NCBI GenBank assembly: GCA_947462335.1
Contig: OX381704.1
Coordinates: 120,896,065 to 120,960,064 of the forward strand
Length of the DNA stretch: 64,000 nucleotides
Source: Harmothoe impar
Taxonomy: Eukaryota; Annelida; Polychaeta; Phyllodocida; Polynoidae
Direction: 5' to 3'
Shown: piece after piece, positions 1-21,800 of the stretch
Layout: each line of letters starts with the position of its first letter
Numbering within the stretch: position 1 is the first letter of the stretch
The notes under the pieces: generated by a model
Databases searched by the model: none
What the model saw: the letters and a program-made list of their open reading frames with translations, nothing else
What the model was told of the DNA's origin: nothing
Program-made: the position numbers and the translations under genes

Positions 1-269
1 TGTATGTATATCTATAGGTGACTGACCGGCCTGTATGGAGAGATGCTATAGAGAACGGTGGCTTTATGCTGTGTTATATAGTGTTATACTTGATGCTGTA
101 GGTGACTGACCGGCCTGTATGGAGAGATGCTATAGAGAACGGAGGCTTTATGCTGTGTTATATAGTGTTATACTTGATGCTGTAGGTGACTGACCGGCCT
201 GTGTGGAGAGATGCTATAGAGAACGGTGGCTTTATGCTGTGTTATATAGTGTTATACTTGATGCTGTAG
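1..269 (+). repeat. 84-bp tandem repeat carrying a 3' splice site and exon start (4 copies with the exon)
   Basis: Copies of the exon start TAG|GTGACTGACCGG occur at 18, 102, 186 and 270, an exact 84-bp spacing. The 270 copy continues into the real exon; the others diverge after about 47 exon-like bases into TATGCTGTG. Each copy keeps a TAG acceptor and the first ~47 nt of the exon. Each copy ends in TAG in the exon frame, so the upstream acceptors cannot give an open longer exon. Confidence 0.9.
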
Positions 270-3200
270 GTGACTGACCGGCCTGTATGGAGAGATGCTA
301 TAGAGAACGGAGGCTTCGTGCAGCAGACAGAGAGCCTCACGTGGAGCGGCAAACCAGAGGAACACATCAAGACGGAGATGGAGAAGTTGGAGGAGGACAG
401 CGACGACGAGGGGGACAAGTAAGGACGCATGTCGCTAATAGATGACATTTGTTGTCATGATGCACCGATGCAGCCCTGGCGGTGTTGCATTGGTGCAACA
501 TGCCGACCCTACAGGAGTGTCTCATGCCCATAGGGTCGGCATGAAGCTTGAAATGAGCACTGGAGTTACTCGCCTGAGCTGCATAAATGCATCATGCCCA
601 CCAAAGGCATGGTGCATTAATGCATTGTTCACTAGTCGCCCTTAAACATTAACCTTATATTAAAGGACCGCAGCATGAGTGTATGTGCGCTTAATAAGAT
701 TAAAACATATTTTTGGTTTAAATTATTTTTTAAGCGCGCAAAGCGCTTATTACATCAAATGCGGTAAATGAATGAGAGTTTGGAGTAAGTAGCTAAATGT
801 TGGTTTGTGCTGCAGGACTGCCGAGAACAAGGTGGTACACGACCTGAAGAGGGCGCTGCTACAAATAGAGCAAGGCATCGACAGCAAGTACCTCAACCCA
901 CCACTAGGTGAGCACAACTTGTATTTTTTATTTCTTCATAACGTAGGCATTTATTGTGACTACGCATGGTACAGTCATAATGTACGAGTTGAAATGTTGG
1001 ATTCGTCGAAGTCAGTCGTCTTCTCAGAATCACGTGTTAGCATCCTTACACAATTATCTGCACACCGCTGATAACACCTCACATTCCACAATTTAATCAT
1101 TCTTTCAACATGTTTGTTGCGAAAAAATGAGAAATAGTTTTCAAGTCGCAATTTACGATAATCAATGATCACTTAAATTTCACCTCAAGCACGACACTTT
1201 AGTTTGTAAGTTATTAACCCTTTAAGGCGAGTAACTCGCCAGTGCTGCATTCAAGTATCATGCTGACCCTGCAGGGTTGAGACACTCCCAAAGGGTCGGC
1301 ATGATGCACCAATGCAGCGCGGATGACGACAAATATAATCTTTTATTGACATTGCGGCCATAACGGGTTAGTTAGCTCCACGTTCACAGTTCACCCCTCA
1401 CTCACACACCTTGTGTTGTCACACTGTAGGTGAAGACGAGAAAGCTAAACGTGCACGACAAAAAGCCACCATAGAGCAGGCCTTTAAGGGACTGCAGGAA
1501 GGGGGCAAGGCCAAGGACAAGGCCAAGGACACAACCAAGGACACAACCAAGGAGCACAAGGACAGCGACAGCAGCTCAGAGAGCGACAATGGTGAGAAGA
1601 CAGGGAACCCGGAGGGGGGAGGGGGGGAGGGCTTCAGTGGCGCCATGAATATAACCTTAGTTGTCGAAATGCCGTTAAACATCCATTACTCACTCATTTA
1701 CTCATGGATTGATATAGTCAAATTTTTCCTTACTGCCAGTTTTTTCATGTCGCAAAGACCTAGGCTAGACTTCTTGACATTTATTGACTTTGTTTTGGAT
1801 GTTATAAAGAGATGGGTTGCGACAGAATTATGACTGACTGACCCTTTAGAAATATGAGGTACCGTCATTTTGAATGTATTTTCTAATGCTGCAGTTCAAA
1901 TTGTATCACAAGAGTCCCACCATAATTCCTCTGCCTTTTTATAGTCCTCTATTTTACAAAGTCTCACTTCACTACACTCCACTTCACTTCACTACTTTCA
2001 CCATTAATAAGTAACATGAACAGGTTTTTGTGGATGGGTCTTTCTCTGTTTCTGTCCTACAGAGGAGGGACATGTCAACCATGTATCAAGAAAGGGTCCT
2101 TTTTATAATATATTATAGTTGTTATGTTGGTATTTACTTATAGCTGAATCCTCATTACATTGCCTGTATTGGCTGTATTTGCAAACATTTCACATCAGGA
2201 AATCCACAAAATAATTATCTTTTAAATAACTTGTATCATAATGCAGGTCTTTGAGGTTATTATATTTCATGTATTTGTCAGTCACACTTCAGACTTTAGA
2301 AAACGTTATCAACAACTTTTTCTGAAATATCACCAGTTCTTTCAATGTCTATAATGCTGTATTACATTGTACAGAGGAGGGGGGGGGGGGAAAGTTCACC
2401 CACTCCATTTGATTGAAGGTTTACATTTGCAGACAAGCACCCACCCCCAATTTATAATTGTTTAAAATCCAAAATCTGTAGACCAATTTCTTTCTGGGTG
2501 TGGTCTAATGCTGTGTATTGTTGTACAGAGGAGGAGAACCTGATTATGATTTTTTCTAAAAAGTCCCTGTTTCTTGCTACCTTTGTCTATAATGCCCCAT
2601 CTCTGGCTATGGTCCAGTGCACAAGCACTGCCTATACAACCCTATTTACATTACTATATATACAGTCATACTTGCATTCACATAATTTCATACTCATTGA
2701 CATGATTCATACTATATATAGGATAGGTAGATTGCACAAGCAATGCCCTCCTTAATTCTATTTAAAAGAAAACATCAAACACAGATCGCCAACACTACTA
2801 TCATTCATCTGTAAGAAGAATTCTATCAATTGGCTACTGCTATGCCCAAACAGACCTGGGGTGGAACTCAGTTTATGTATTTATATGTTTGCACTTATAT
2901 GTACATAGCTCTTCCAATTCAGCTCTTGAAAATCGTAGTGTGAACCATAACTTTGTCTGAAATTTAAAAAAATCTTACAATTGTGTGTTGTAGAGGAGGA
3001 GAACGAGGCGATGAAGAAGACGCCCCTGGAGCGCTGGGAGGAGTCTCTGATGGCCTCGACCTCCCTGCCCCAAATCTTCCTGCACATCTCTGTCCTAGAG
3101 CGCTCCATCGTCTGGTCCAAGTCTGCCCTGCACGCAAGGTGTAGGATCTGCCGCCGCAAGGGGGACGCCGAGAAGATGTTACTGTGTGACGGGTGTGACA

Positions 3201-6200
3201 GGGGGCAGCACATGTACTGTCTGAAACCTGTAGTTAAGGTGTGTTATGTAGTATACTGTACATGTAGTGTAGAAGTAGTACATGTAGGGAGTATAGAAGG
3301 GGGGCACAGAGAAGATGTTACTGTGTGACGGCTGTGACAGGGGGCAGCACATGTACTGTCTGAAACCTGTAGTTAAGGTGTGTTATGTAGTATACTGTAC
3401 ATGTAGTGTAGAAGTAGGGAGTACATGTAGGGAGTATAGAAGGGGGGCACAGAGAAGATGTTACTGTGTGACGGGTGTGACAGGGGGCAGCACATGTACT
3501 GTCTGAAACCTGTAGTTAAGGTGTGTTATGTAGTATACTGTACATGTAGTGTAGAAGTAGTACATGTAGGGAGTATAGAAGGGGGACACAGAGAAGATGT
3601 TACTGTGTGACGGGTGTGACAGGGGGCAGCACATGTACTGTCTGAAACCTGTAGTTAAGGTGTGTTATGTAGTATACTGTACATGTAGTGTAGAAGTAGT
3701 ACATGTAGGGAGTATAGAAGGGGGACACAGAGATGTTACTGTAGACCTGAACTTTAGAAGTAGGTGTAGGCTGTACAGATATGCGTCCCAGAGGACCATT
3801 CCTGTAATTCATGTCAATCCACTGAGTAAAAAATTTAGGGGGGGGGAGGGGCACTCATGAAATGCCCCTTTTGAATATCAAAACAAGGTAAATCTCAACT
3901 GAATGAATTCATTCCTGGACCAATATTAACATTCATCTATTTTGACTTTACAGAAAATCCCCGAGGGAGACTGGTACTGTGTGGACTGCCGCCCTAAGGT
4001 GATCGTCCAGACGCCCCGTAAGGCACGTCGCAGCCTGTCTACACGCACGGAGGAGAGTGAGGAGGAGGAGGAGGAAGAAGAGGACGAGTCGGACGATGCA
4101 CAGGAACTAGAGTCAGACGAGGAGGAGGAGGAGGAAGCACAGGACTCGGACGCTGAGGTGGCCGACAGTGATGACGCAGAGGACGATGATGATGACGACG
4201 ATGATGATGATAGGTAACTTTTTCACCACTTATGTATTCAAAAACTTTTTTTTTTGCAGTGAGATTATTCTAGATGTACTTCTAGCTTGTCTGTTATTCT
4301 TCTAAATTACCGGTAACATAATGTCAACACTTCTTACAGCGATGATGATGATGAAGATGATGACGATGATGATGATGACAGCGATGAGGAGGAGGAGGAA
4401 GAGGAGGAACCTCAACCCGTAGCCGTCAAGTTAATCAAATGTAAGTGATTTATCATGTCTTTACTTTTATTGTTAAGGCTGATTTCAATGATAGGTATAT
4501 GAAATAAGAGTTTATATAATGATCCACAGGAATACTTACAATAACTGACAAAGGGAAAGTCATGGAGAATGTTGGAGGGCTAGGGAGGGTGGGGGGATAT
4601 TTTGACAAAGTCCATTAGAATGTATCATTTGCTTGTGAGGTTTATTCAAAATTGAAGACCACCTGGCGCTTTATTTCAATGACAAATTTACCTTCGGGCG
4701 CACTAGTTATTTTCACTGTAGACGCAGTAATAAGAAGGACTCTCGGTCTTTGTAGCTAAGGCGCGCGGTCGTCCCGGCTCGGCGCCGTCCTCCGGTCGCT
4801 CTACCCCCAATCTGAGCTCCGGGCGGCGCAGTAAGGAGCCCACCCCCGCCGACACCGGCCGCACCTCACGTAACCGGCAGAGTCTGGACACCTCAGGGGG
4901 ACCCCCCGCCAAGCGCTCCCGCACCAGCCTAGACAAGCCCCCCAAGGGCCGGGTGAGCGATGCGGGAAGCAAGCGCAGCAGCCTCGCCGGTCGCAGCGCC
5001 GGGAAGAAGACAGCGAGCGAGCCGAGGAAGGTCGCCGCTGGGAAGAGTCAGGAGAAGGCCGGCCAGGGGCGACACGCTCGGTCTAACAGCGCTAAGGGAC
5101 GCCAGAGTCTGGACACGGCCACAAAGGGCAGCAAGAGGAAACTACACCTGGACGACGGTAAGCAACCCACTGAGGGACTCATCTAGGGACAGGACGGGGG
5201 GGGGGGGGGGTAGGACATGGCTGGGTGCCTGGGACACCGCTGGGTGCCTGGGACATGGCTGGGTGCCTGGGACACGGCTGGGTGCCTGGGACACGGCTGG
5301 GTGCCTGGGACAGAACGGGGTGCCTTGGACACGGCTGGGTGCCTGGGACACAGCTGGGTGCCTGGGACACGGCTGGGTGCCTGGGACACGGCTGGGTGCC
5401 TGGGACACGGCTGGGTGCCTGGTACACGGCTGGGTGCCTGGGACAGAACGGGGTGCCTTGGACACGGCTGGGTGCCTGGGACACGGCTGGGTGCCTGGGA
5501 CACGGCTGGGTGCCTGGGACACGGCTGGGTGCCTGGGACACGGCTGGGTACCTGGGACACGGCTGGGTGCCAGGGACACGGCTGGGTGCCTGGGACACGG
5601 CTGGGTGCCTGGGACACGGCTGGGTGCCTGGGACACGGCTGGGTGCCTGGGACACGGCGGGGTGCCTCGGACACGGCTGGGTGCCTGGGACACGGCTGGG
5701 TGCCTGGGACACGGCTGGGTGCCTGGGACACGGCTGGGTGCCTGGGACACTGCTGGGTGCCTGGGACACTGCTGGGTGCCTGGGACACTGCTGGGTGCCT
5801 GGGACACGTCTGGGTGCCTGGGACACGGCTGGGTGCCTGGGACACGGCTGGGTGCCTGGGACACGGCTGGGTGCCTGGACATGGCTGGGTGCCTGGACAT
5901 GGCTGGGTGCCTGGGACATGGCTGAGTGCCTGGGACCAATTGTAATGGCTTAAGTTAACAATCTTAGACTTCAAATCAATAGATGTTAAATAGCATAAAC
6001 CTTTGTTAATTCATTGAACATAATGCCTTTATACCAGTAAATATTAAATCATTTTAATTCAGTATAAAGCTTTGTTCATTCAACCTAAGGGAGTGGTCAT
6101 TTTTTAACAACAGGGGGGGGTTGGTGGATTTGCCTTGAAGGGGGCGGACCAAAAAAAATTCGACCCCTCTTGAGGGGGGGACCAAAAAAATTACACCCCT

Positions 6201-8894
6201 TTTTAGCGAAAAAGCCCGTGCGATACTATAGCTCAAAGGGGTCGACCACGCTCATTTTCAACCTGCCTAGGGGGGGACCGAAAAATTTGTGACCCCTTCC
6301 GCGGGGGGGACCAAAAAAATTTCGACCCGCTCGCGCGAAAATCCACCGACCCCCCCCCCTGTTGTTAAAAAATGACCACTCCCTAATGCCTGTATATTGT
6401 GTTGTAGAAGAGGAGGAGCCGGTGAGTAAGAAGACGGTCAGTAAGAGTAGGGGCGGGGAGGACGCCTCTCAGCTCAAACTCTGTGAGAACCTGCTGCTGG
6501 AGCTGGCAGACCACAAGGACGCATGGCCCTTCGCACGGCCCGTCACCAAGAGGGAGGTGAGCAGATCTACGTAATTCTGTGTACGGACTGGCATGTGTAC
6601 CTGGTATCAGATAATGACAACAGTTTCAGGGTCTGATGACCTGCAACTGTAAAGGTAAACTGCTAATGGGCATGGATGTTGCCTGGATAATTAAGTGTGC
6701 CTGGGACCACCTTTGGGGTGCCTGGGACCAGCTTTAGGGGTGCCTGGATAATGGGCAGTGCCTGGGACCAGCCTTTGGGGTGCCTGGGTAATGGGGGGTG
6801 CCTGGGTAATGGGGGGTGCCTGGGACCAGCTTTGGGGTGCCTGGATAATGGGCAGTGCCTGGGACCAGCCTTTGGGGTGCCTGGGTAATGGGGGGTGCCT
6901 GGGACCAGCTTTGGGGTGCCTGGGTAATGGGGGGGGTGCCTGGGACCAGCATTGGGGTGCCTGGGTAATGGGGGGGGGTGCCTGGGACCAGCTTTGGGGT
7001 GCCTGGGTAATGGGGGGGTGCCTGGGACCAGCTTTGGGGTGCCTGGATAATGGGCGGTGCCTGGGACCAGCTTTGGGGTGCCTGGATAATGGGGGGTGCC
7101 TGGGTAATGGGGGGGGTGCCTGGGACCAGCTTTGGGGTGCCTGGGTATTGTAGAGGTTGCGGAAAACTTAGTCATTGGATCGGCCGGGAATCGAACCACA
7201 GACCTCTCGCACCGGTGACAAGCGTGCTAACCGTTACACTACCAACCCGTGACTACTCTCCGCTCCCTACGTTACTGGATCGGTATGGTACAGAGGGGGA
7301 GGATTACCCAGGTGTTTCACCCCTTCGGGCTTTCCACCAGGGTACGGGGAATCCGACCCCTACACTACCCCCACCAGCTTCCATTATGTCCTCTCGATTC
7401 GGATTTTCCGGGGGGTTACCAACCCTGGGCTTTCTCTCCCTCCTAGAAGGGGCTTTATCAAGCAGTTACAGAGAGTCCCAGCCCCCGGAGTATAGAGGCA
7501 CCTAGCACCAGGCATTCTCACCCACCAGAGACCGAAGGTCCCAATGAGGCTTTATCAAGCAGTTGTTGAGATACCCTGACTTCCCAGCAATGGAAGCTTT
7601 CCACACCATACCGATTCAGCCAATTCTGTTGACTAGACTCCATGCTTAACTCCAACTACCCGTACTAGGATCCAGTTCTCCTTCCCAAGGCCCTTGTACA
7701 GGGGGCCCTGTTTTCTCCTTCGGAACCCTAGCAAGTTGGAATGCTCCTGCCGACTAGTCAACGTACTACCCGATTCATCGCGGCAGATCCACCAGTGTAG
7801 AGGTCGCGGAAAACTTAGTCATTGGATCGGCCGGGAATCGAACCACAGACCTCTCGCACCGGTGACAAGCGTGCTAACCGTTACACTACCAACCCGTGAC
7901 TACTCTCCGCTCCCTACGTTACTGGATCGGTATGGTACAGAGGGGGAGGATTACCCAGGTGTTTCACCCCTTCGGGCTTTCCACCAGGGTACGGGGAATC
8001 CGACCCCTACAGTATTAAAGGGGGATGCCTGGGACCAGGATTGTTTCCCTTGTCTGACTTTCCTGTCTACTTGCGTTTTTAGGCCCCGACTATTTCAACA
8101 TCATCCAGACCCTGATGGACTTCCATGTATACTAATGACTGTATGTTTGTCTCTAGGCCCCCGACTACTTCAACATCATCCAGACCCCGATGGACTTCCA
8201 TGTATACTAATGACCGTGTGTTTGTCTCTAGGCCCACGACTACTTCAACATTATGCAGACCCCGATGGACTTCCATGTATACTAATGACTATGTGTTTGT
8301 CTGTAGGCCCCCGACTACTTCAACATCATCCAGACCCCGATGGACTTCCATGTATACTAATGACTATGTTTGTCTCTAGGCCCGATGGACTTCCATGTAT
8401 ACTAATGACTATGTTTGTCTCTAGGCCCGATGGACTTCCATGTATACTAATGACTATGTGTTTGTCTGTAGGCCCCCGACTACTTCAACATCATCCAGAC
8501 CCCGATGGACTTCCAGACGATGAAGGCCAAGATGAACAAGTACTCGTACCTGGAGCCGTGTGCGGTGCTGGAGGACCTCCGACTTATCTTCCAGAACTGT
8601 GAGCGCTACAACGTCCCCGACGCCCCCGAGTACCTGGCCGGGCAGCGGCTGTGTCGGCACTTTGTGCAGCGGGTCAAGGAGCTGAAGCTGGACGCCGTGC
8701 TGTCTCAGCAGGCAGCGGGCAGCAACAAGGGCAGCACGGGGGGCAGTAAGGGCAGCAGGGGCAGCCCGGGCAGCAGCACCAAGGGCAGTAGGACCAGCCC
8801 CGCAGCCACCAACAAGTCCAGCCCCAAGGTGAACGGGGGAGGAGGGTCGCCTGGGGAGGGCAAGTCCCGGCGACGCTCAGGCAGACGGACTTAA
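270..8894 (+). CDS. BAZ1A: BAZ1A/ACF1-like chromatin-remodelling subunit, 3' part, 9 exons
   Basis: Coding exons: 270-418, 816-907, 1430-1591, 2994-3238, 3954-4213, 4340-4440, 4756-5157, 6408-6556, 8472-8894. Every junction is GT-AG and every phase matches, giving 660 codons plus TAA. Order of parts: a linker with LLQIEQGIDSKYL (about 65-77); a conserved block before the PHD (TPLERWEESL to WSKSALHARC); a PHD finger (184-228) with all eight ligands C184, C187, C199, C202, H207, C210, C225, C228; acidic Asp/Glu runs; a basic Ser/Arg region; a bromodomain (about 496-598) with the WPF shelf (510-512) and acetyl-lysine Asn N567; a Gly/Ser/Lys tail ending in RRRSGRRT. Known family role: partners the ISWI ATPase in ACF/CHRAC nucleosome spacing. 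The PHD (KGDAEKMLLCDGCDRG) favours BAZ1A; parts of the bromodomain (MDFQT) also resemble BAZ1B, so the invertebrate single-copy BAZ1 is possible. The N-terminal WAC and DDT regions lie outside the window. Confidence 0.88.
422..815. repeat. Intron with a GGCGAGT/ACTCGCC-type dyad repeat
   Basis: Intron between BAZ1 exons 270-418 and 816-907. Positions about 455-640 hold a degenerate member of the dispersed dyad repeat seen throughout the window (TGATGCACC.ATGCAGC, TTACTCGCC, TGCATCATGCC). A second member lies in the next intron at about 1219-1345. No coding signal seen. Confidence 0.7.
1592..2993. other. Intron of the BAZ1-like gene with acceptor-like duplicates
   Basis: No exon is supported here. 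Sequences like the start of the next exon (ACAGAGGAGG) occur at about 2060, 2373 and 2525, each preceded by a plausible acceptor AG. The last copies TGTACAGAGGAGGAGAAC, close to the real junction TTGTAG|AGGAGGAGAAC at 2994, then diverges. They look like decayed duplicates of the exon start. Confidence 0.5.
2994..3238 (+). CDS. BAZ1A: BAZ1-like exon: pre-PHD helix block and first part of the PHD finger
   Basis: Encodes residues 136-216. It carries six of the eight PHD ligands (C184 to C210); the last two (YCVDC) are in the next exon. The first donor, AAG|GTGTGT after 3238, joins in frame to AAAATCCCC at 3954. The final ~70 nt plus donor are repeated downstream. Confidence 0.9.
3171..3745 (+). 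repeat. About 140-bp tandem repeat of the PHD exon end plus splice donor (4 copies)
   Basis: The string AGAAGATGTTACTGTGTGAC recurs at about 3171 (in the exon), 3310, 3452 and 3591, with a fragment near 3727. Each full copy encodes MLLCDGCDRGQHMYC, then ends in the same AAG|GTGTGT donor and ~70 bp of intron. The copies are nearly identical, which implies recent amplification. Confidence 0.93.
3954..4440 (+). CDS. BAZ1A: BAZ1-like exons: PHD end and acidic tracts
   Basis: Exons 3954-4213 and 4340-4440, phase 2 joined through an AGC Ser codon. The first gives IPEGDWYCVDCRPK, closing the PHD, then long Glu and Asp runs. The second continues the Asp/Glu run and ends near VAVKLIK. The acidic tract is split by a 126-bp intron between GATGAT repeats, so both exon edges sit inside a GAT/GAG microsatellite-like stretch. 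Confidence 0.85.
4756..5157 (+). CDS. BAZ1A: BAZ1-like exon: basic Ser/Arg-rich low-complexity region
   Basis: A 402-bp GC-rich exon (acceptor TTTGTAG, donor ACG|GTAAGC). It encodes a basic disordered segment beginning KARGRPGS, an AT-hook-like GRP core, with two copies of RQSLDT (about 50 residues apart). It links the acidic region to the bromodomain. Confidence 0.85.
5200..5935 (+). repeat. Intronic 19-bp minisatellite (GGGTGCCTGGGACACGGCT)
   Basis: About 38 tandem copies of a 19-bp unit directly behind a G run, inside the intron 5158-6407. Because 19 is not a multiple of 3, all frames stay open for hundreds of codons; these are not genes. Variants (ACATGGCT, ACTGCT, AGAACGG) recur in blocks, showing segmental copying within the array. 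Confidence 0.95.
6089..6383. mobile_element. PIF/Harbinger-like MITE (copy 1)
   Basis: Terminal inverted repeats GGGAGTGGTCATTTTTTAAC / GTTAAAAAATGACCACTCCC, 295 bp, flanked on both sides by TAA. A 3-bp TWA target duplication is the PIF/Harbinger signature. The interior is G- and C-run rich with no ORF. It ends about 25 bp before the bromodomain exon at 6408, so it may supply part of that exon's upstream splicing context. Confidence 0.85.
6408..6556 (+). CDS. BAZ1A: BAZ1-like exon: start of the bromodomain
   Basis: Acceptor GTTGTAG, donor GAG|GTGAGC, phase 1 in and phase 0 out. Encodes an acidic/basic linker, then CENLLLELADHKDAWPFARP, bromodomain helix Z and the WPF shelf. It joins in frame to APDYFNII at 8472. 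Confidence 0.9.
6690..7150 (+). repeat. Second intronic minisatellite (GGGTGCCTGGGACCAGCTTT and GGGTAATGG variants)
   Basis: An alternating array of two related units sharing the core GGTGCCTGGG, which is also the core of the array at 5200-5935 one intron upstream. The units alternate a ...ACCAGCTTTG form with a ...TAATGGG form of variable G-run length. Confidence 0.9.
7151..7367 (-). mobile_element. tRNA-derived SINE, copy A
   Basis: Read on the - strand it has an A box (TAGTGTAACGG) and a B box (GGTTCGATTCC) in a tRNA-like arrangement, followed (lower strand, towards the left) by a non-tRNA region. The second portion, TTACTGGATCGGTATGGTAC to CGACCCCTACA, recurs in other elements. A nearly identical copy lies 647 bp downstream. 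Confidence 0.8.
7368..7797. other. Spacer between two SINE copies
   Basis: About 430 bp containing two GGCTTTATCAAGCAGTT motifs about 100 bp apart. No coding signal, and no terminal repeats apart from the flanking SINEs. The SINE-spacer-SINE arrangement may be a local duplication or two independent insertions. Confidence 0.4.
7798..8010 (-). mobile_element. tRNA-derived SINE, copy B
   Basis: Nearly identical to 7151-7367 over its length, same orientation, including the A and B boxes and the ATCCGACCCCTACA end. The high identity suggests recent insertion or local duplication. Confidence 0.8.
8075..8471 (+). repeat. Tandem repeat of the bromodomain-exon acceptor and exon start (7 acceptor copies including the real one)
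   Basis: Acceptors TAG|GCCC occur near 8081, 8154, 8232, 8306, 8379, 8424 and the real 8472. The first four copies carry up to ~50 nt of exon-like sequence (PDYFNIIQTPMDF) and then fall into TCCATGTATACTAATGAC, which includes a branch-point-like TACTAAT; the next two are shortened units of about 46 bp. Every copy thus has branch point, pyrimidine tract, AG and exon start. Confidence 0.92.
8472..8894 (+). CDS. BAZ1A: BAZ1-like terminal exon: bromodomain core and C-terminus
   Basis: Encodes APDYFNIIQTPMDFQTMKAK, the BC-loop FQNCERYN with the acetyl-lysine-binding Asn, helix C (YLAGQRLCRHFVQRV), then a Gly/Ser/Lys-rich tail ending RRRSGRRT and TAA. Start is set by the last TAG|GCC acceptor because only that copy continues into MDFQTMKAKM. 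Confidence 0.93.
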   Translation, partial: APDYFNIIQTPMDFQTMKAKMNKYSYLEPCAVLEDLRLIFQNCERYNVPDAPEYLAGQRLCRHFVQRVKELKLDAVLSQQAAGSNKGSTGGSKGSRGSPGSSTKGSRTSPAATNKSSPKVNGGGGSPGEGKSRRRSGRRT

Positions 8895-10093
8895 AGTTGT
8901 GGCTGTAGGACTTGATGTTATTGTGAGGAGGCTGCAGCTTCTACTAAGTCATATCACCCAGTACAGCCGGGGGGGGGCGTAGAGGGCTGCCGGGGGGGGT
9001 GTGGCACGTAGAGGACTGCCACTGGTACTGTGAGGAGGCACACATGTGTCACACCGACCACACAGGAGAGAAACCTGTCACCCGGTCACTGACTGCCTCC
9101 CCACCTCCCCCCGTGGTAGACACCCAGTACTTACCTACATTACACAACTAGAATCATGACATTCCACAGATGGAGTAGGAGGCTGCAGCATGATTCAGCC
9201 CCAGAGGCCTTACCTGGACCCTGCCCCACAACACTGCTGTAGTACATGGGAGGGGGGGTGTTGAGACATGATGTCTACCATGCCACCATGGGACTAGGGA
9301 CTAGTTCACAGCCGTGTACCTCATGACGTAGAGCTGTGACTTGAGTGCTGACATGCACCCAACTGTTATAGATTAATTACTGTGAACGTGGATATGTTCA
9401 CTGGTGTAAATTTCCGCGGATTTGCTAAAAAGTTCTATTTCTCAAGGATTTTAATTTGTGAAATCTGCGAATATATGGACTGTGCAAAATAAAATATGTT
9501 TTTACAGTACCACATTATTATATACATCAATCAATGAGACACATCAAAAGTTGTTGACTCATCCGGGACAGACTGTTACCACAAGCAGACCGAGAGACTC
9601 TGCTTAATAAACACGATGCATTTAACTTCAAGTTTCACATCTGCCACCACCACATGCCAATCCTGTATTTATCACCAGAAGACAGGTTTGGAGGTTTACC
9701 GACAAATGTAGAGTGTTCAATTTATATTTTGTTACCCATGTAGCCGCAGCGTGTGTCAGAAGGGAGGAGTGTGTTGACATGTGCCGTGGTGCAGGTGGAA
9801 TTATTCCCAATTATTGTATATATTTAACACGATATAAAGACACTGCATCGCTCAAATCGCGTTAAGAGGCATAGCTGATATAAGGAATGTCGCTCAGGTC
9901 TTTCTATGACACCCGTAATAAACTTGTACACTGTTTTATTTAAATTATTGTGACACAAAGATGAACTGTTCCTTTCTCTGACGAGCGCGCAGTGACGCTA
10001 GGATACCTGCCGGCGCCATTTTAAGCAGCATGTTTTGATTGTTGACTGTCAGCTGAGTGGAGACTGACGGCGTCGAGTTGAGATAGAAATAAA
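8895..10093 (+). other. 3' UTR region of the BAZ1-like gene with candidate poly(A) signals
   Basis: AATAAA occurs at 9488-9493, 9606-9611 and 10088-10093. Which is used cannot be told. The segment 9375-9510 starts TTACTGTGAACG and ends TTTTTACAGTA, a weak inverted repeat that may be a decayed MITE. Near 10009-10021 GGCGCCATTTTAAG resembles a reversed YY1 site. Confidence 0.5.
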
Positions 10094-10733
10094 GCTGTCA
10101 TTACAACCTATGTGTTAGTCTGGGTTTGTGACTACCATAGAAACAAACGACCATTTATATGTGCATATACGCCTGACAAGCGTTAAACCCGCACACCCAA
10201 ATCTTTTGAGTAACAGGGGTCCCGAATAACAATTCATTAAGTTCTGTAGTATACTGCATTATCCGATTGTTCCAATTACGTTTCAGTTTAATAGGCTTAT
10301 AATGGTGAGAAAACATTAATGCAAAACCTTGCATACAAGCCGCCCCTTATTAAACTTTCAAAGCTGTGAAAACTCAGCGTAAAATCTCCAGATCCATTGA
10401 GAAATCTATTATACTTTCTGTGTGTGTCGGGAGGGGGGGGGGGGGACACTCATTTAGTCTCCCAAGCCCTCACATTATTTGCCTTTTCCCAGTTGACACC
10501 GCTACCTTTGGAAAATCATAGAGGCCTAACAAGGGATCTCATTATGGCAACTTCAGTACTGGAGTATACAGTCAATGACTTACGTATTCACAGGCTGCAC
10601 CCTGTCTTTGTCCTGATTCTATAAGCCGCACTGGCCGCAGCCTACATGCAAGGTTTTACAGTACTGGCTATTTTTAGTTGAAAGGGGCGTGCGCTAGTGT
10701 TATTGTGGAATACACTCTGCATGTTTGGTGAGA
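10094..10733. other. Intergenic sequence between convergent genes
   Basis: No exon supported. It contains fragments of the TATAAGCC(G) MITE family (near 10320 and 10620), low-copy TA-rich sequence and a G run at 10429-10445. Confidence 0.4.
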
Positions 10734-10736
10734 TTA

Positions 10737-11054
10737 GGGAGTGCTCATTTTTTAACAACAGGGGGGGGTGGTGGATTTGGGGGGGGGGTAAAAAATTTGG
10801 ACCCCTTGACCCGGGGGGGGTAAAAAATTTAGACCCCTCTTGGGGGGGGGGGTCATGAAAATTCAACCTGTTTTGAAGGGAAAAGCCCGCGCGTTACTAT
10901 GCTACAAAGGGGCGCGAACGCGAGCGATTTTCGGCCTGCCGGGGGGGGGGGTAAAAAATTTCGACCCCTCTAGGGGGGGGGTGAAAAAATTTCGCACGCT
11001 CTGCGCGAAATCTCACCGCCCCCCCCCCCCTGTTGTTAAAAAATGAGCACTCCC
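10737..11054. mobile_element. PIF/Harbinger-like MITE (copy 2)
   Basis: TIR GGGAGTGCTCATTTTTTAAC with its inverted partner, 318 bp, flanked by TTA on both sides. Same family as the 6089 and 27697 copies, with G/C runs inside and no ORF. Confidence 0.85.
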
Positions 11055-11058
11055 TTAA

Positions 11059-11226
11059 GGGAGTGTTTATTTATTAGTTACGGGAGGGGGTGGTGGGGTT
11101 GGGGCGGTGGCAGCGTAAAAGTTTCCGACCCCTCCTGAGGTGGGGGGGGGGGCGTAAAAAATTTTCGCCCCTCCCGGCGAAATCTCATCGCCCCCCCCCC
11201 CTTGTAATTAATAAATGAACACTCCC
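11059..11226. mobile_element. PIF/Harbinger-like MITE (copy 3, short)
   Basis: 168 bp, TIR GGGAGTGTTTATTTATTAGT / ATTAATAAATGAACACTCCC, flanked by TAA. It begins immediately after copy 2: the two share the junction TTAA, so one element inserted into the target-site edge of the other. Confidence 0.8.
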
Positions 11227-12851
11227 TAAGCTGGGGTTGATTAGCTGAGGCTTCTACGTGAGAATTTACTGTAATACTTCTAGAAAAAACACGAAGGGCA
11301 CACAGAAGCTTACTTTAATAGATAGGTTTTTATTTCATTCTGTACAAGTTCATTATAATGACTACATATAACACTTACATAATGCTGTACACAAAGGTTT
11401 AATGGACAGAATCAGGCGGACAATTAATCTCATTATATATGCAGATTTATGCATGATTACAAATATGCAATGACAAGTTTGCATACGTAAGACCTGTAGA
11501 ACACAGAGGTGTGGACAGCTGGAGATGCGCTCTATATCGGTGTGTGTTCAGGTATAAGGCTTTACACTCGTGGACGACGCCCGGAGGCGGGACCCTGTGT
11601 CAGGTTTACCCCAACAAGGAGGCATCTCAGATCACAGACACATGACAACAACGCCACACTTATGTATACTTCACATGACTTCCATGAACGTAGTTTGAAA
11701 TGGAAATAAGAGAATGGAGACAACAAGCACAGAAATGAGCACAGAGGAACAGAACTCTGGTTATAGATGAATATGATACACACAGACTGTTATATACAGG
11801 TGATTATGACTAAACCCATAGATATGTAGAGTAAGCATGTTAACCTCAGCATTTAAGGACACAACAGGGGTAGACACTAACTTTTTCAGCCATGGGCCAC
11901 CCGGGCCCGTAGCTTTAGAAATCTATGGGCCCGCTCCTAAATGTATGGACCCACAATTATCGTTTCACTTTTCCTAAAGAGAACATCTGTTAGCTTATAT
12001 TAAACTTAACCATGATTGCTGGTTTCCCAGTGATTTTTCCCCCTTTTTAACAAAATTTAACATGACTATGTACATATATAGATGTATTTTTCTAGAATTT
12101 CCTCCATGCACTTCTGAGGGCCACCAGGGCTCATAGGAATGTAATTCTTGAAACAAAACTATGGGCCCGCAGCCAAAACTACGAGTCCTTGGCTCCCGGC
12201 CTAGCGTTAGTGTCTATCCCTGATACAATATAGTTCGACATGAAGAGACGGAGGTGTCCCGAGACCATCCTGCGGGGCGTGTTACAGTCCACACTGACTG
12301 ACCCACTGAGCTGTCAACAAGTAATAATGCTCAATATACAACAATATACCACAGTGTGGTGCATGCCTGGACTGGGACTAGACACGGGGCCCTGAGGAGA
12401 CACGCAGGGTACGCAGGCTGCAGAACTGATTGTCACATGGTTCAGGCAAGTCTATTTCAGCTGCAACTTCTTCCTCAAAAACAAAAGAAAAATCCAATTG
12501 TTTGTTCACCCTTCAAGGGCCAGATAATGCTTTAATCCAGTTTGTTGTCATGATGCATGAACGCAGGATCGGTGAGTAACTTAACAGTGCTTCATTCATG
12601 CATCATGCCCACCGTTCAGGAGTGTTGTCAATTCTGTAGGTTAAGCATGATGCATTCATGCAGCAAAGGTGAGTAACTCGCCATTGTTGCATCGGAATCC
12701 TATGCATCATGACGATAAAGGGCATAATGCATTAAAGCACTGTAATTTCCTGTGCACAAGTTGCCCTGAGGCTGTGTGTGAAAGGTGCATGATCCGGGAC
12801 AAGGAGAAACGCCGCTTGACTTATGATGCTGGTCTGCTAACGATGACGAGC
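11227..12851 (-). other. Probable 3' UTR and downstream region of FRMD8-like gene
   Basis: On the - strand AATAAA occurs at 11329-11334, about 1.5 kb past the FRMD8 stop codon. The interval includes a 358-bp inverted-repeat element (11865-12222) and a dyad-repeat copy (about 12535-12760). No other coding signal. Confidence 0.4.
11865..12222. mobile_element. Short inverted-repeat transposon, CAGGGGTAGACACTAAC family (copy 1)
   Basis: Begins CAGGGGTAGACACTAAC and ends GCGTTAGTGTCTATCCCTG. The interior repeats the phrase CCGGGCCCGTAG and the companion GGGCCCGC. The copy at 32341-32706 has the same ends and interior. No clear target duplication here, and no transposase. Confidence 0.75.
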
Positions 12852-15800
12852 TCACTTCTTCTTTATCGAGCGGGCGTTGTTCTTGGTGCATTCTCCTACA
12901 AACAGAATTGATGCTCATTATTATTCTTATTCACTGCTTGAAAAAATGGTGATTTTTTTTCTTTCATTGAATTCCCCCCCCCCATTTTCTTACTTTGAAC
13001 AGTTCTTTAAATCTTTAATAATAGGAATATCCACAATCAAGAACAAGGTCTGCTAGTGCACTATGTCTAGATTACATTCCAACCATCAGGACTTAATTTG
13101 TGAGTTCTGGCTTGAAAGAGGAACATCATCCTCAAAAAAAGAGAAACCTCCAACTTGGGGGAGGGCGCTTGTTACGTTAAATATGGTATACCCGATAAGT
13201 TACTACCGTAAAACCTCGCGTATAAGCCTAACTCGCGTATAAGCCGCACCCCGACTTTGTGCCGATCCTATAAGCCGCACCAGCCATCTGAATATGGTGA
13301 CTTTAGTACTGTACTATAGGAGCAAAACCCCTCGTATAAGCCGCACCCCGACTCTGGGCCGATCCTATAAGCCGCACCAGCGATCTGATTCGCGTACTAG
13401 CCGCGGCTTATACGCGAGGTTTTACGGTAAGTATGTGACTAGATGTGGTACGTACCTTTCCTGTTGAAGGTGGCGAGACACATGCGGTTAAAGTCGCTCC
13501 ACGTCTCTCCCGACGACAACATGACACCATCTGAAGACACAACATTACCGTCTGAGGATACAACATATGGCGTACTTACACAATATCACATCATGTATTA
13601 TCCAGAAGCAGCAGATACAGTAGCAGCCAGCCTTTCTGCGCTGATATATTGTTGTTAAGGTGAGATTAATCTCATTACATATGTACTATAAAAACCCAGC
13701 TATAAGCCGAATCACCCAAATCATTAATAAAACAGGCTTATATTAGAAGGGCCAAAAAACTTTTTGGGTGTCACGTTCAGGTTTACAAAAATTTTGAAAA
13801 AATCTTCCCATTTCTATACTTTTTTGGGTCAATTTTAGCGGGAAAGTGAAAAAAAAAAAGTGGAAAAAAAAAAAATCCGACCTACCGTCCCTAGAGTTTC
13901 TTCCCATGTTTAATACCTGAACCAAAGCTGTATTTTTTTTAAAAGTAATGTATTACAACCTAGCCTATAAATTGACTCCATAAAGATTGGGAAGATGACA
14001 ATGCCTCACTGACCGGTCTCGTCGACCTGTTCTGGGGAGGCGTTCTTCAGCTTGATGCAGGCCTCGATGAGGGCGTCCATCAGGATCCCCTGAAGTAACA
14101 CGTGTAGACACATTGTAACAGGACATTATTAAAGTCTAGTAAAACAAGTCATGGTTTACACACACACAGCAGCTGTAGATACGTCACTGAGGCAGTAGTC
14201 GTGCTGTATTGGACACTTTAACTAATGTAATCCCCCATCTTGTACAACCCTGACCTTTAACCCCCTGTGAGACCTAACATTTAATTCCCTATGTGTGACT
14301 GACCTTGATCACATTTCTGACTCCGACATTCAACCCCCTGTGTGACTTTAGCTAGATTCCCGATGTAACCCGAATATCTAACCTGTGACCTGCCATTAAT
14401 CTGTGTGACTTAAATTATTTGACCCTGACCTTCAGAATTAATGTGTCACCTTGACCTTTAACTGTTTGTGTGCCCTTGCCCTACTTCCCACTGTGAACCT
14501 GTGACCAGAGATGCCACTCTCTGGACGACAAAAAGTTAAAGTCAATTTACTGTAGACAATGCTCACAATTTAATACAGATATTCCCATGAAAAAGTAGGA
14601 ATTGCTGCAAAAGTAGGAAAATTGCACCGTACCTCTCGTGAGAAGATCTGCAGCATCTTGGAGACGGTCTCTCCGTCCTCCTTGGCCTTGAACTGCAGGA
14701 AGAGGCAGGGCATGCAGTTCCTGTTCTCCAGGTCCTTAGGCTCTGCATACTCCCACGACAACTCACGGAACAGCAGCCCCATCAGGAATTTCTGTACAAC
14801 GAGGAGCATGGAACATGAGCAAAACATAGAACATCAACAAAAATGATACATGAATGCAGCCCTGGTGACTCACCAGTGCTGCATTCATGCATTCTTCTGA
14901 CCCTACAGGGTTGAGACACTCCCAAATGGTCGGCATGATGCACCAATGCAGCACTGGCGAGTTACTTGCCGGGGCTGCATTGGTGCATCATGACAACAAA
15001 TGCCATCTTTTAGCAACTTGTGTCCTTAAATGGTTCAGACAGCTTATGACCCATTGTTGAGAGCAGGGCGTTATGCGAGACTCCCCACGTCGTCCATAAA
15101 TAAAGAAGAAATCGACCTACTGACCCTATTTATTTATAGCCATGTTCTCGGAACACAACTTATACTACTAATTAGGCCTTATCTGACACTCACCATGTCG
15201 TCCATGTCTATGATGTACACCCCCCTTATATGGCACTCACCACGTCGTCCATGTCTATGATGTACACCTTATATGGCACTCACCACGTCGTCCATGTCTA
15301 TGATGTACACCTTATATGGCACTCACCATGTCGTCCATGTCTATGATGTACACCTTATATGGCACTCACCACGTCGTCCATGTCTATGATGTACACCTTA
15401 TATGGCACTCACCACGTCGTCCATGTCTATGATGTACACCCCCTTATATGGCACTCACCACGTCGTCCATGTCTATGATGTACACCTTATATGGCACTCA
15501 CCACGTCGTCCATGTCTATGATGTACACCTTATATGGCACTCACCACGTCGTCCATGTCTATGATGTACACCCCCCTTATATGGCACTCACCACGTCGTC
15601 CATGTCTATGATGTACACCCCCTTACATGGCACTCACCACGTCGTCCATGTCTATGATATACACCCCCCTTATATGGCACTCACCACATCGTCCATGTCT
15701 ATGATGTACACCTTATATGGCACTCACCACATCGTCCATGTCTATGATGTACACCTTATATGGCACTCACCACGTCGTCCATGTCTATGATGTACACCCC

Positions 15801-18800
15801 CTTATATGGCACTCACCATGTCGTCCATGCCTATGATGTACACCCCCTTATATGGCACTCACCACGTCGTCCATGTCTATGATGTACACCCCCTTATATG
15901 GCACTCACCACGTCGTCCATGTCTATGATGTACACCTTATATGACACTCACCACGTCGTCCATGCCTATGATGTACACCCCCTTATATGGCACTCACCAC
16001 GTCGTCCATGTCTATGATGTACACCTTATATGGCACTCACCACGTCGTCCATGTCTATGATGTACACCTTATATGGCACTCACCACGTCGTCCATGTCTA
16101 TGATGTACACCCCCCTTATATGGCACTCACCACGTTGTCCATGTCTATGATGTACACCTTATATGACACTCACCACATCGTCCATGTCTATGATGAAGAC
16201 CCCCCGGGTGTTGATGGCCACGTACACAGGGTCGTCCATCAACGAGCGCAGGTGGAACTTACCGCCCGGGTGTTCAATCTGCCCCTTGAAGAACGCCGCC
16301 CTGCAAGCACAACAATAGGGGCACTGTCAGCAGGGGAGAAATGGCAGCTTAAACATGAACCCAAATCACTCAAACAAAACTTTACCAATATTCATCCCCT
16401 CCCACTTTGGGTTTGATCCATGGAAGAGAACCAGACATTGGGCTGATTGAGTGTCATATTGATAAATCTAGTCGCGGACAAACGTTCCCTGCCCACTTTG
16501 GGCTCAATGCATGTTTCCCTCCATGACTAAAGTAGGGAATCAGATATTGGGCTGGTTGAGCATGAGGAATTTTCACCACAAAAGTGATACTCATTATTGA
16601 TTGATTGATTGATTTGTTTAACGTCAAGACGTACATCAAGTACCTCACGGGACATCTCAAGTTGGCAAGGAGTCATCCACAAATAGTGGTAGTCTGCCTT
16701 GCAGTGGTAGGACAGATATTTATATGCTGCTTGCCCAATACAGCAGTGACCACATCTATGGATGATTGAATCTATGAAATGAATGACCGCATCTATGAGG
16801 TGAGGGAGAAAACCGTAACCGGGGCACGTCCCCTACTGTTTTCGAAGGATAGCAAGTGTTCTTTTATTTGTTCCTACCTACCTGGGCTAGTACCATAGTA
16901 GGCAGGGCCAAACAAACCACGGCCTTTGATATCTCAGACGTGGTTCACTGAGGAGGAATCCCATGCCAGACCACCAGCAAGAAGGCCTGGGCCCGTGCAT
17001 ATGGGCAGCGGTTGCCAAACAGCTTACGTGACTAATCACAGCAGTAAGGCACTAGACCCCTCAAGGTTTGTCACCTTTTACGAATCCGGTATGCCCATTG
17101 GTATTGTGGAAGGCTCCCGATGAAGTTATTCTACTCCTTCATGCCCCCATCATGAAGGTCCCCACTAACACAGGGAGATGATACTCATTAGATCAATATC
17201 ATAGTCATAGGCCCCAATTTTACTGAATATTTTTGGACTTCAATCCAGAAAGTGCCATTAAATGATTACATGAAATTAACGCTCAATTCTAAGTCCCTAC
17301 TTACCAATAGTAAGGCAGCTTCCAGCAGAAGTCTAAGTAGGTCTTGTAGCAGTGTCTGTACTCACCCATAGTAAGGCAGCAGAAGTCTAAGTAGGCCTTG
17401 TAGCAGTGTCTGTACTCACCCATAGTAAGGCAGCAGAAGTCTAAGTAGGCCTTGTAGCAGTGTCTGTACTCACCCATAGTAAGGCAGCAGAAGTCTAAGT
17501 AGGCCTCGTAGCAGTGTCTGTACTCACCCATAGTAAGGCAGCAGAAGTCTAAGTAGGCCTCGTAGCAGTGTCTGTACTCACCCATAGTAAGGCAGCAGAA
17601 GTCTAAGTAGGCCTCGTAGCAGTGTCTGTACTCACCCATAGTAAGGCAGCAGAAGTCTAAGTAGGCCTCGTAGCAGTGTCTGTACTCACCCATAGTAAGG
17701 CAGCAGAAGTCTAAGTAGGCCTCGTAGCAGTGTCTGTACTCACCCATAGTAAGGCAGCAGAAGTCTAAGTAGGCCTCGTAGCAGTGTCTGTACTCACCCA
17801 TAGTAAGGCAGCAGAAGTCTAAGTAGGCCTCGTAGCAGTGTCTGTACTCACCCATAGTAAGGCAGCAGAAGTCTAAGTAGGCCTCGTAGCAGTGGCTGTA
17901 CTCACCCATAGTAAGGCAGCTTCCAGCAGAAGTCTAAGTAGGCCTCGTAGCAGTGTCTGTACTCACCCATAGTAAGGCAGCAGAAGTCTAAGTAGGCCTC
18001 GTAGCAGTGGCTGTACTCACCCATAGTAAGGCAGCTTCCAGCAGAAGTCTAAGTAGGCCTTGTAGCAGTGTCTGTACTCACCCATAGTAAGGCAGCAGAA
18101 GTCTAAGTAGGCCTTGTAGCAGTGGCTGTACTCACCCATAGTAAGGCAGCTTCCAGCAGAAGTCTAAGTAGGCCTTGTAGCAGTGTTTGCGTGCCTCAAT
18201 GTTCTCCAGACGTCCGTACGTCTTGTAGGCCTGTGCATGGTAACCCGTCAGCCGGATCTCGGGCGCGTTCTTACCACGGAACAAGGACCACTTCTTGGAG
18301 AGAGCGATGTGCTCTGGGTAATACTCCGACACCAACTCTCTGCAAGCACAATATACATGTAGGTTAAGCAATGCCACATTGTGATAAAACTCACCAAGGA
18401 AGTGTATGTACATGGATTGTGAAATAGGCTGTTTTATTCTGATGAGAGATGTATTACGGATCCGCCACCGAAAATTTGGCATTTTGCGAAGAAAAAGTCC
18501 ACTGAGGCCTGATATTTCTGAACATACTTTCCTACTGGATAAAATTTGAAATTCAGATTTTGGGCCCACAGATGGTAGAGATTCCCTGCACTAAGTCTAT
18601 GACCCTCAGAGTCACCTATGGGGCACCTTCAAATGTACTGTCATGAAAACAAGACTCCCCTAAGTGTAAGCTATTCCCTTGAGGCTTCATTACAGTATGT
18701 CCTATACCTGCAGTATTTGTTACAATCTATATTTACCTGTAGTATTTGGGTGTGTATATGTTGTCTCTATATTTACCTGTAGTATTTAGGAGTGTGGATG

Positions 18801-21800
18801 GTGTCTGTATTTACCTGTAGTATTTAGGAGTGTGGATGTTGTCTATATTTACCTGTAGTATTTGGGAGTGTATATGTTGTCTCTATATTTACCTGTAGTA
18901 TTTAGGAGTGTGGATGGTGTCTATATTTACCTGTAGTATTTGGGAGTGTGGATGTTGTCTCTATATTTACCTGTAGTATTCAGGTACATATTTACCTGTA
19001 GTATTTGGGAGTGTGGATGTTGTCTATATTTACCTGTAGTATTTGGGAGTGTGGATGTTGTCGTCGTACTGCCGGTGGTTGATGAGGGCCTGTAGACCGG
19101 CCAGCATGTCGTACTGAGCAGCTTCTAGCGGGTAGCGCCCGTCTACCACGTTCTCCTTAGCCTCGTGGTACAACAGACGTAGGATCTCCGGGTCCGTGAT
19201 CTGACAAACGGCAACACGGAAATGTACATGACGATGGGTAATCAGAGGTTCTACAGGAAAGTCTTGAACCCACGGATGAAAGTGAACAATCTCAAAGAAA
19301 CTTGAAAAATTCAAATTGAGGTCACTGAATGGGTCCTCGATGGTTAAGTATAGATCTTCTCGACATAAAAGAAATCTTGAAATCAGAGAAAAACTTTCAT
19401 CTCTGTGAACTTGTTTTGGATGGGCATTTGTGGAGGAAAGTGGAAAAATTGGGTCAGACATGCAGATTTTAATCAATTCACAGAACAATATGAAAAGAGC
19501 AATTAAATCAGCAAGTTTAAAGGAGAAAACCTGAATCTTTAGTCAGATGACAAAGTACAGAGAATGATGGAAACCTTGGGTGAGGCTTTGGTGGATTTAC
19601 CTCTTTTTCCTTTGACAGCGGGTAGAAGACGTTACGTTGGAACATGATGACAGCCTCATCTGAAATATAACAACCCGCGATTAGCACAAGTTCGGAGACA
19701 GAAATAAGAACATATCAACCAAATCTGTAAGATTTCAGAATCAGGAAATCTTTTAACGTAGGCCTCAAGACAAAAAGTCCAAAGAAATTGCTAGCCCAGC
19801 TAGGTATATATTAGGGTGTGGGTGTTCAGAACATTAGCAATATAAAATGTTGTGTACCTCTCTCGATGTCGTCTTCGTCGGCGGAGGTGTACTTCTCACA
19901 GAGCTCCTCCCAGTAACACGCCAACTTGAAGGGCACCTGGTTCGGCTTCAGCTGCACCTCTGGGAATATAGAGAGACTTGGATAGAGGAAACATAGCTTC
20001 TGGTTGTACATACAAGGTTATAATATTAGGTTTTAGCTGCACCTCTGGGAACATACAGAGTAACAGAGGCAGGACATTAGTAAATATCACCTCTGGGCAA
20101 ACTCACGGAGCGCCATTTCCAATGTGGGAAATACACCACTCACATTTGACAACAGAACTGTAGTTCTGCCCGTGCAGACATACCCGGTATTTTACTTACA
20201 CTGTAAATACACATTGTCGTGCATCATTCTTACACTGTTTCCCATTGATTTGTAATTTTATCTAGATATTTAGGCCCATAATTGATCAGATATGCGTTAA
20301 AATAGGTTTTAAAAACTGTCAGGTCCCGAAAATGTAGCCCAATATAATCCTGGATTCTAGGCTTTGTTGTCTATTTTATTGTAGAATAATGGAAAACTAA
20401 ATAATTTGATTTGGGTTCTATTCCCTTTATGATAAAGACTCTGTAAAACCTTGCGTATAAGCCGCGGCTAGTACGCGAGTGCGGCTTATAGCACCGGCCC
20501 AGAGTAAGGGTGCGGCTTATATGGGAATTTTTCAACTACCATGGTACAATACTAAAGGCACCATAATCAAATCGCCAGTGCGGCTTATAGGATCGGCCAA
20601 AAGTCAGGGTGCAGCGCATACGAGAGTTAGGCTTATACGCAAGGTTTTACGATATGCCTAATTGTTCAGATTGGTAGGAACTACATTTTAACATGTTACT
20701 CACCAAGGCTGCATTCATGCATCATGCTGACTAAGGGCATGATGCATTAATGCCTTAAAGGGTTAAAGGACTAACTCACCTAGCAGGTCCGAGACCAGCC
20801 ACATGGAGAAGATCTCGCGGGCGGCGGGAGGGAACTTCATCTCCTCCATGACCATCTCAAACAGCTCTGACGCCTCGCAGTTCTGTCCATCGTCCACGAC
20901 TAAGTGGATGCCGGTCTTATCCATGAAGTAGACCACCACCTCTAGTGCTGTAAGTATAGGACACCCAATGTACCTCTAGCTGTACACATAGTATAGTAGG
21001 ACTTTATATAATAGTACATGGAGACACCACCAGTCTTACCCATCAAGTATACAACTACCCCAAACGCTGTAAATATATAATGTATAATAATTACTGCACT
21101 GTAAGTGTATTATATACATGGTAGTGTAAGAGAAACAGGTTCTCTGAAAAGGGGTTTCTCAGAGACACCGGGACTCGAACCTGCGGCCTCCCAATCCAAA
21201 GCGGGTGCTCTACAACTGAGCTATAGCCCAACCCTTCAGATAGACCACACCTCACGTTGCTGGATCGGTTCGGTGCGTGGAGGGGAATAATGATGCAGGA
21301 ATTATCCTCTACAAGTGAATATATGGACACCACGTAAATATTTTATATACCGTAAATTCTCACATGAACCAAACTGCCAGTGCAGGATATATAGGTCAAG
21401 GTCAGGTTATGGGTCTGAAGTCCAGGTGCAAGCTACATACGAGAATTTACGGTACACACTTAATGTATATATACACCTACCCCAATATAAAATGTCCTGT
21501 ACAATCAAACATCAGCACCTGGTTGTAAAAGAGTCTTGTACATGTATAAGCACCAGGGATTTAGGCACCCTTAAAATACATCTTAAAGATGTAAAATGAG
21601 CGCCTGTCTTGTATAAGCGACAAGCATATGTTGCACACCCCGCTTCGTCCATTGACAATTCTTTTTAAAACAACTTTCCTAAAATATACACCCATATACA
21701 CCCCATCACCCCTGGTAACAAGAACACACAGGAGCTGGGGCCGCAGTAAACACAACAAATACAACTCAAAATGGTCTAGCATAATTCCCCTTCAAAAACT

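Follow-up and report, generated by a model that had tools for sequence, protein, structure and literature searches.

Minisatellites spanning exon-intron junctions (mirages) in a tandemly duplicated gene block of the scale worm Harmothoe impar suggest turnover of intron ends

Introduction

Tandem arrays known as mirages, in which the repeat unit crosses an exon-intron junction, were named at the amphioxus Adh3 gene and later described in the globin genes BflGb6 and BflGb9, troponin C, and PGBD5 (PMC3087553, PMC3902484). According to the portions of these papers available to us, reverse transcription PCR suggests normal splicing, and a model of intron gain has been proposed. Here, we describe arrays of this type in a BAZ1-like gene and an FRMD8 gene of Harmothoe impar, an annelid scale worm, located in a 64,000-nucleotide window on chromosome 1 (1.51-Gb assembly GCA_947462335.1, contig OX381704.1, forward-strand positions 120,896,065 to 120,960,064; coordinates below are window positions unless another contig or megabase positions are given). 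An earlier note, made from the letters of the window alone, had recognized the likeness to the amphioxus mirages, and the arrays do fit the published description as far as those portions give it. The same note had taken the host for a lancelet, which was mistaken; the host belongs to the Annelida, outside the cephalochordate setting of the known mirages, although that setting is not structurally required. COX1 of contig C736 has 97% identity to an entry of the Phyllodocida, and the next named matches, Branchipolynoe, Alentiana, and Branchinotogluma, are scale worms. We interpret the arrays, with a probability of roughly 60%, as neutral junction-spanning minisatellites shaped by exon-anchored unequal exchange, a process that may also be able to replace intron ends.

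Compared with the amphioxus mirages, those described here belong to another phylum, are concentrated as six arrays in two genes within 19 kb, and come with nine paralogous loci, which allow growth, collapse, and intron-end replacement to be compared. Human genes in segmental duplications carry variable internal tandem repeats, some at exon-intron boundaries (PMC2812944). These are likewise minisatellites in recently duplicated genes, but in the available part of that paper their effect is to extend exons or introns or to give rise to new introns, whereas the six worm arrays lie on the intron side and leave the modelled coding sequence unchanged. Intron gain by tandem duplication (PMC4974935, available in part) similarly involves the tandem duplication of a sequence that bears splice signals; in the worm, by contrast, existing intron ends are multiplied or replaced, and no new intron position is seen. 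Another annelid, an earthworm, has minisatellite arrays in long-read data within a metallothionein gene (PMC12783039), and the excerpt of that paper available to us places them in the first intron and does not mention exon edges. No mirage outside cephalochordates, including annelids, was found in the open-access literature (titles and abstract openings among the matches listed; subscription papers were not covered). An ascidian paper containing the word "mirages" was discarded, as the word appears only in the title of an unrelated reference. The finding is thus a new phylum for a known repeat type, with added evidence for intron-end turnover.

Results

Junctions are labelled by gene (F, FRMD8; B, BAZ1-like), exon number, and side (D, donor; A, acceptor). 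In six arrays lying between positions 1 and 19062, the unit called by Tandem Repeats Finder (TRF) consists of an exon edge and its own donor or acceptor (Table 1), that is, of exon sequence plus the adjoining intron across a real junction, as in the two myosin cases described below. The authentic junctions were fixed on the grounds that the BAZ1-like and FRMD8 reading frames are open across the modelled exons. By these frames, the copy closest to the body of the exon holds the authentic site in all six arrays, and the decoys are all on the intron side. The earlier note had reported six such arrays, each with the real junction at one edge; all six were recovered near the positions it gave, and the authentic site indeed occupies the exon-side copy in each. 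Its count holds for arrays and falls short for junction copies, since degenerate copies of two FRMD8 acceptors lie near 20044 and 21067. Its further statement that local arrays always straddle junctions does not hold, because three repeats of these two genes lie wholly within introns.

Table 1 Positions of junction-spanning arrays, further repeats, and host genes in the window.
Feature	Position	Strand	Unit and copies	Authentic site	Decoys and remarks	Basis
B1A, BAZ1-like acceptor array, first exon in window	15..316	+	84 bp x 3.6	exon start 270	decoy exon starts 18, 102, 186	TRF; patterns; frame
B4D, BAZ1-like PHD-exon donor array	3158..3733	+	139 bp x 4.1	donor after 3238	decoy donors deeper in intron	TRF; patterns; frame
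B9A, BAZ1-like bromodomain-exon acceptor array	8080..8471 (TRF 8080..8475)	+	75/45 bp	exon start 8472	on reading, every unit shows TACTAAT, a pyrimidine tract, AG, and the start of the exon	TRF; frame
F6D, FRMD8 donor array	15177..16195	-	43 bp x 22.9	donor after 16174	22 decoys	TRF
F5D, FRMD8 donor array	17323..18186	-	54/61 bp x 15.6	donor after 18136	15 decoys	TRF
F4D, FRMD8 donor array	18726..19062	-	38 bp	donor after 19034	8 decoys	TRF
Single degenerate copy of FRMD8 acceptor and exon start	20021..20044	-		exon start 19959		alignment
Single degenerate copy of acceptor and exon start of FRMD8 exon 20947-20780	21020..21067	-				local alignment, score 41
Comparison array	5213..5936		19 bp		wholly intronic	TRF
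Comparison repeat	6134..6200		32 bp, two copies		wholly intronic	TRF
Comparison array	6718..7114		about 40 bp		wholly intronic	TRF
BAZ1-like gene, 3' part, PHD finger and bromodomain	270..8894	+			nine modelled exons: 270-418, 816-907, 1430-1591, 2994-3238, 3954-4213, 4340-4440, 4756-5157, 6408-6556, 8472-8894	frame; splice sites; Pfam
FRMD8 gene	12850..20947	-			ten coding exons (20947-20780 ... 12895-12850)	frame; splice sites; Pfam

A DNA search placed the BAZ1-like/FRMD8 block in nine tandem copies (P1 to P9) over 780 kb of chromosome 1 (120.755-121.535 Mb), of which P3 corresponds to window positions 1-21500. FRMD8 exons 1-10 and BAZ1-like exons 4-9 were mapped in all nine loci and BAZ1-like exons 1-3 in four, these exons lying beyond the compared stretch in the other five. 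Exons are mostly 95-100% identical to those of the window, with a low of 89% for the acidic BAZ1-like exon 6 of one locus. The 20 kb compared do not differ between P8 and P9, so that eight of the loci are distinct, and P9 was omitted from most counts. The FRMD8 frame is open in all nine loci, and the mean nonsynonymous (dN) and synonymous (dS) divergences over 28 pairs are 0.0011 and 0.067, respectively (dN/dS 0.016). The genes of the block are under strong constraint. Introns of the block copies look mosaic between copies.

Copy number is unstable between the paralogous loci. The eight distinct loci hold 8, 30, 8, 52, 33, 26, 29, and 9 decoys at F4D, 8, 18, 15, 25, 4, 10, 9, and 0 at F5D, and 9, 2, 3, 8, 6, 19, 10, and 11 at B4D. 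The corresponding counts at B9A are 1, 0, 4, 0, 7, 2, 2, and 7, and those at F6D, where decoys are present in only two loci, are 0, 0, 22, 0, 0, 14, 0, and 0. The four loci that reach the exon of B1A have 4, 8, 15, and 15 decoys. At both F5D and F6D in P8 and P9, a second unit is cut down to its opening bases and gives way to other intron sequence; these remnants are apparent scars of the kind expected from collapsed arrays. In P5, with zero F6D decoys counted, the sequence after the donor is nearly the same as that after the last F6D copy of the window.

The intron ends beside decoy and working sites were compared between copies by identity over 60 nt, for which shuffled sequences gave a median of 0.58 and a 95% level of 0.63-0.65. 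At three acceptors (F2A, F7A, and B9A), there are two types of intron end, about as unlike each other as shuffled sequences, and one locus carries both types, split by the exon-start copy. At F2A, this locus is P3, the copy in the window, where the decoy is the degenerate copy at 20021-20044: its decoy end matches the working intron end of P5, P6, and P8 at 0.90, its authentic end is 0.92-0.98 identical to those of P1, P2, P4, and P7, and the cross values are 0.62-0.67, a few of them just over the shuffled level. At F7A, the decoy end of P7 matches P1 and P2 (0.97-0.98), and its authentic end is closest to P8 (0.88) and then P4 (0.80), with cross values of 0.62-0.72. B9A was tested in P6, the B9A decoy of P1 having been missed by the script; the outer decoy end of P6 is 0.98 identical to P2 and 0.82 to P4, its authentic end is 1.00 identical to P1, and the cross values are 0.60-0.63. 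Around F7A, P7 has a mosaic sequence that changes over at the copy of the exon edge. The 250 nt upstream of this point are 0.98-0.99 identical to P1 and P2 and 0.66-0.71 identical to the others, and the downstream sequence is 0.978-0.985 identical to P3, P4, P6, and P8 and 0.885-0.906 identical to P1, P2, and P5. These comparisons suggest that decoy and working splice sites have traded places between gene copies.

Exon variants that are silent by codon reading were considered when they lay within the repeat unit at a locus with decoys, and in three of the four eligible cases they are common to exon and decoys of the same locus. The silent variant at B9A of P5 occurs in four of the seven P5 decoys and in none elsewhere. 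Sharing is weaker for F4D of P4 (5 of 52 decoys) and F6D of P3 (2 of 22), and the exon variant at F5D of P4 is found in none of its decoys.

Junction duplicates also occur outside the cluster, in two myosin genes among the control loci, and both stand up to closer inspection. In a myosin gene on contig C12 (- strand), 65 nt across an acceptor (-21 to +44) are duplicated with 63 of 65 positions identical, and the authentic exon start (34194032) and the decoy (34194265) are separated by a 28-bp array. A second myosin gene, on contig C20 (17439401-17443200), has an acceptor mirage of 50 bp x 10.7, the unit of which consists of intron end and exon start and the array of which extends 17 nt into the exon. 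Four genes therefore have the structure; they belong to three families and lie on three chromosome-scale contigs.

The models of the two host genes in the window have an open frame from end to end with GT..AG introns, and that of FRMD8 matches FERM_M and KRIT1_FRMD8_FERM_C in Pfam. An FRMD8 intron contains a dispersed element at about 16597-17180, with copies of about 96% identity on many contigs. Beyond the two genes, large tandem repeats occur at 37131-46440, with units of 188/374 bp (TRF) at 37131-38043 and near-identical open reading frames (ORFs) spaced 1.78 kb apart from 38791 to 44413. In-frame, coding-like tandem repeats are located in + strand ORFs at 51672-52550 (42 bp x 21) and 57006-57163 (78 bp x 2). 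An array of the 18-bp unit GGGGGCTACACCCACACA spans 59939-64000 and continues past the window end; it is interrupted by a 52/104-bp repeat resembling, by eye, repeats near 29.9-32.3, 47.5, 49.3, and 59.3 kb. Elsewhere in the assembly, contig C466 contains a second COX1, very unlike that of the worm and presumably flatworm-like, and may derive from a parasite, prey, or a contaminant.

Discussion

We propose a pathway for the origin and turnover of these arrays. Slippage or unequal exchange would duplicate a segment across an exon-intron junction and place the copy on the intron side, and the mRNA would be unchanged provided that the exon-side copy stays in use. Comparison of the paralogous loci shows that copy number then ranges from 0 to more than 50, as arrays grow and, judging from the scars, collapse. 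The silent variants and the compared intron ends point to a further step, the direction of which we infer, in which the real exon edge joins the exchange: exon and decoys would come to have variants in common, and the intron end beside the exon could give way to the corresponding end from a different allele or gene copy. In the cluster, the exchange probably takes place between tandem copies with like exons and different introns. Because of this difference, homology would end at the exon edges, and exchange ending there would lead to a local excess of junction copies. Exon definition is the likely means by which the spliceosome chooses the exon-side copy among equal donors.

Several results weigh against this proposal. 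The F2A flanks on both sides of P3 match P5, P6, and P8, and loss of an older duplicate in those three loci therefore explains F2A as well as exchange does. No swap of intron ends was found at the degenerate B4A copy (0.65, 60-nt identity), and the identities of 0.65-0.75 at F9A are too middling for a clear call. The exon edges of mirages are no more divergent between loci than other edges (donors, 0.0128 vs 0.0149; acceptors, 0/1320 vs 0.0161) in a comparison that omitted BAZ1-like exons 1-3, 5, and 6. Junctions are not in excess in control loci, where one array in ten crosses an edge and 0.61 would be expected (P for at least one, 0.48), and a special preference is therefore not established beyond the preselected window. 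Seven loci served as controls, one of a clathrin heavy-chain gene and six of myosin, with 108 known edges in 66.7 kb. The clathrin locus contributed one gene with 19 modelled introns, its first-exon stretch being unused. The myosin loci were chosen for compactness among 83 matches before their sequence was seen, and their edges are approximate ends of tblastn matches, with undetected exons uncounted. Finally, local copies are also found in 25-50% of intron-internal windows, depending on the locus, within the cluster, from which it follows that duplication is common everywhere in the cluster introns.

The control and intron-internal results would be expected if tandem duplication were entirely ordinary and without junction preference, so that in the minisatellite-rich introns of this genome some arrays cross edges by chance, several of them in one or another of many windows scanned, and are tolerated as intronic ones are, and the three intron-only repeats within the BAZ1-like and FRMD8 genes accord with such an origin. 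The earlier note had held that exon edges should not be hit this often by ordinary tandem duplication. The window agrees with it, the controls do not: of the nine array units in the BAZ1-like and FRMD8 genes of the window, six cross a junction, where 1.16-1.35 would be expected (P = 1.5e-4 to 4.2e-4, depending on the null), in a test that is post hoc, as the window was chosen for the feature. Each array of the two genes with a TRF period of at least 15 and a score of at least 80 was collapsed to one unit, and leaving out the two-copy repeat at 6134-6200 gives six of eight arrays (P = 1.5e-4), P being slightly higher with the ninth array. At the level of edges, 8 of 36 in the locus of the window have a local copy compared with 2 of 108 in the controls (Fisher P = 2.4e-4), with the window preselected, the myosin edges approximate, and matches at B5D and B6A, which belong to the acidic low-complexity BAZ1-like exons 5 and 6, scored as misses. 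Chance crossing also sits poorly with the degenerate copies carried by more junctions of these two genes. Unit-based counts replaced a window-based enrichment test because long arrays inflate the intron count. The TRF overlap rows of the eight loci (29 junction, 41 intron) did not enter the counts, since several of those classed as intron belong to junction arrays called short of the junction. A control of exon interiors, too small to be of use, gave local copies for 0 of 1 FRMD8 and 3 of 19 BAZ1-like 70-mers, the latter three perhaps coming from the acidic low-complexity exons. The genes of the window are rich in junction copies, and a genome-wide preference is unsupported by the controls. 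We consider duplication without any junction preference unlikely, though a serious alternative to exon-anchored exchange.

Selection might instead maintain the decoys, for example by slowing or regulating splicing or by routing misspliced mRNA to nonsense-mediated decay. Splice signals are present in many copies: the 433 decoys of the eight loci have only 3 mismatches in 866 dinucleotide positions, compared with 1177 in 19359 elsewhere, so the splice motif, which the earlier note had seen in every full copy, is kept in nearly all of them but not in all. Among the decoy donors tested in P3, P4, and P6, GT is kept in 200 of 202, and the mean U1 pairing energy is close to that of the authentic site, F6D decoys equalling their authentic donor. 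An in-frame stop lies between the authentic and first decoy donor in 23 of the 25 locus-junction pairs with donor decoys (the exceptions being F5D and B4D of P2), and in the window both acceptor decoy readings hit a stop within one unit. While these features could be taken as signs of maintenance, a stop after the donor is expected of any intron, and raw mismatch counts are insufficient because the copies of an array are related. When distinct variants are counted, randomly chosen adjacent pairs come out as conserved in 5.1% of trials (permutation P = 0.051). The decoy dinucleotides therefore show no clear lead in conservation and no clear sign of selection. Decoys are moreover missing at F6D in six of the eight distinct loci, at F5D in one, and at B9A in two, and we regard their maintenance by selection as very improbable. 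In the B4D arrays of the window and the paralogous loci, the exon part of the decoys has far fewer distinct variants than the intron part, an imbalance perhaps due to the micro-repetitive intron part. A general rule that AG closes every duplicated intron piece was considered and dropped, since at F5D some copies, for example P5, have AA in place of AG.

The arrays could also be intermediates of intron gain, with a decoy piece recruited as an exon or its signals defining a new intron, as proposed from mirage copies for the amphioxus globins (PMC3087553); a related origin of introns out of tandem repeats is described for duplicated genes of humans (PMC2812944). The nine FRMD8 loci nevertheless share the same ten modelled exons and an open frame, with no new intron position among them, which makes intermediates of this kind a most improbable account. 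An assembly artefact, to which the sameness of P8 and P9 over 20 kb could point as a duplicated assembly piece, is hardly credible, and the short-read origin that the earlier note had named as a possible undoing is unlikely, since the assembly (wpHarImpa5.1) was built, according to the available part of its description (PMC10541532), from 30-fold high-fidelity (HiFi) long reads with Hi-C at a consensus quality value (QV) of 58.6, neither the window nor the compared loci contain any N, the same junctions carry arrays of differing length in eight distinct loci, and the C12 and C20 genes share the structure.

These results extend mirages beyond cephalochordates on long-read data. Nine near-identical loci present the same junction with zero, one, or dozens of copies, and they make directly testable how the spliceosome singles out the exon-side site where many donors are equal, and whether splice sites can move between duplicates, with intron ends replaced and the protein untouched. 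More tentatively, and at less than even odds, mirages may represent intron-end turnover: recombination between alleles or gene copies with diverged introns would be anchored at exon edges and would duplicate them, and the working site would pass between copies while intron ends are replaced and the protein is unchanged. Such turnover might operate genome-wide in this annelid, where 2 of 108 control edges have a local copy, and maybe wherever introns diverge much faster than exons.

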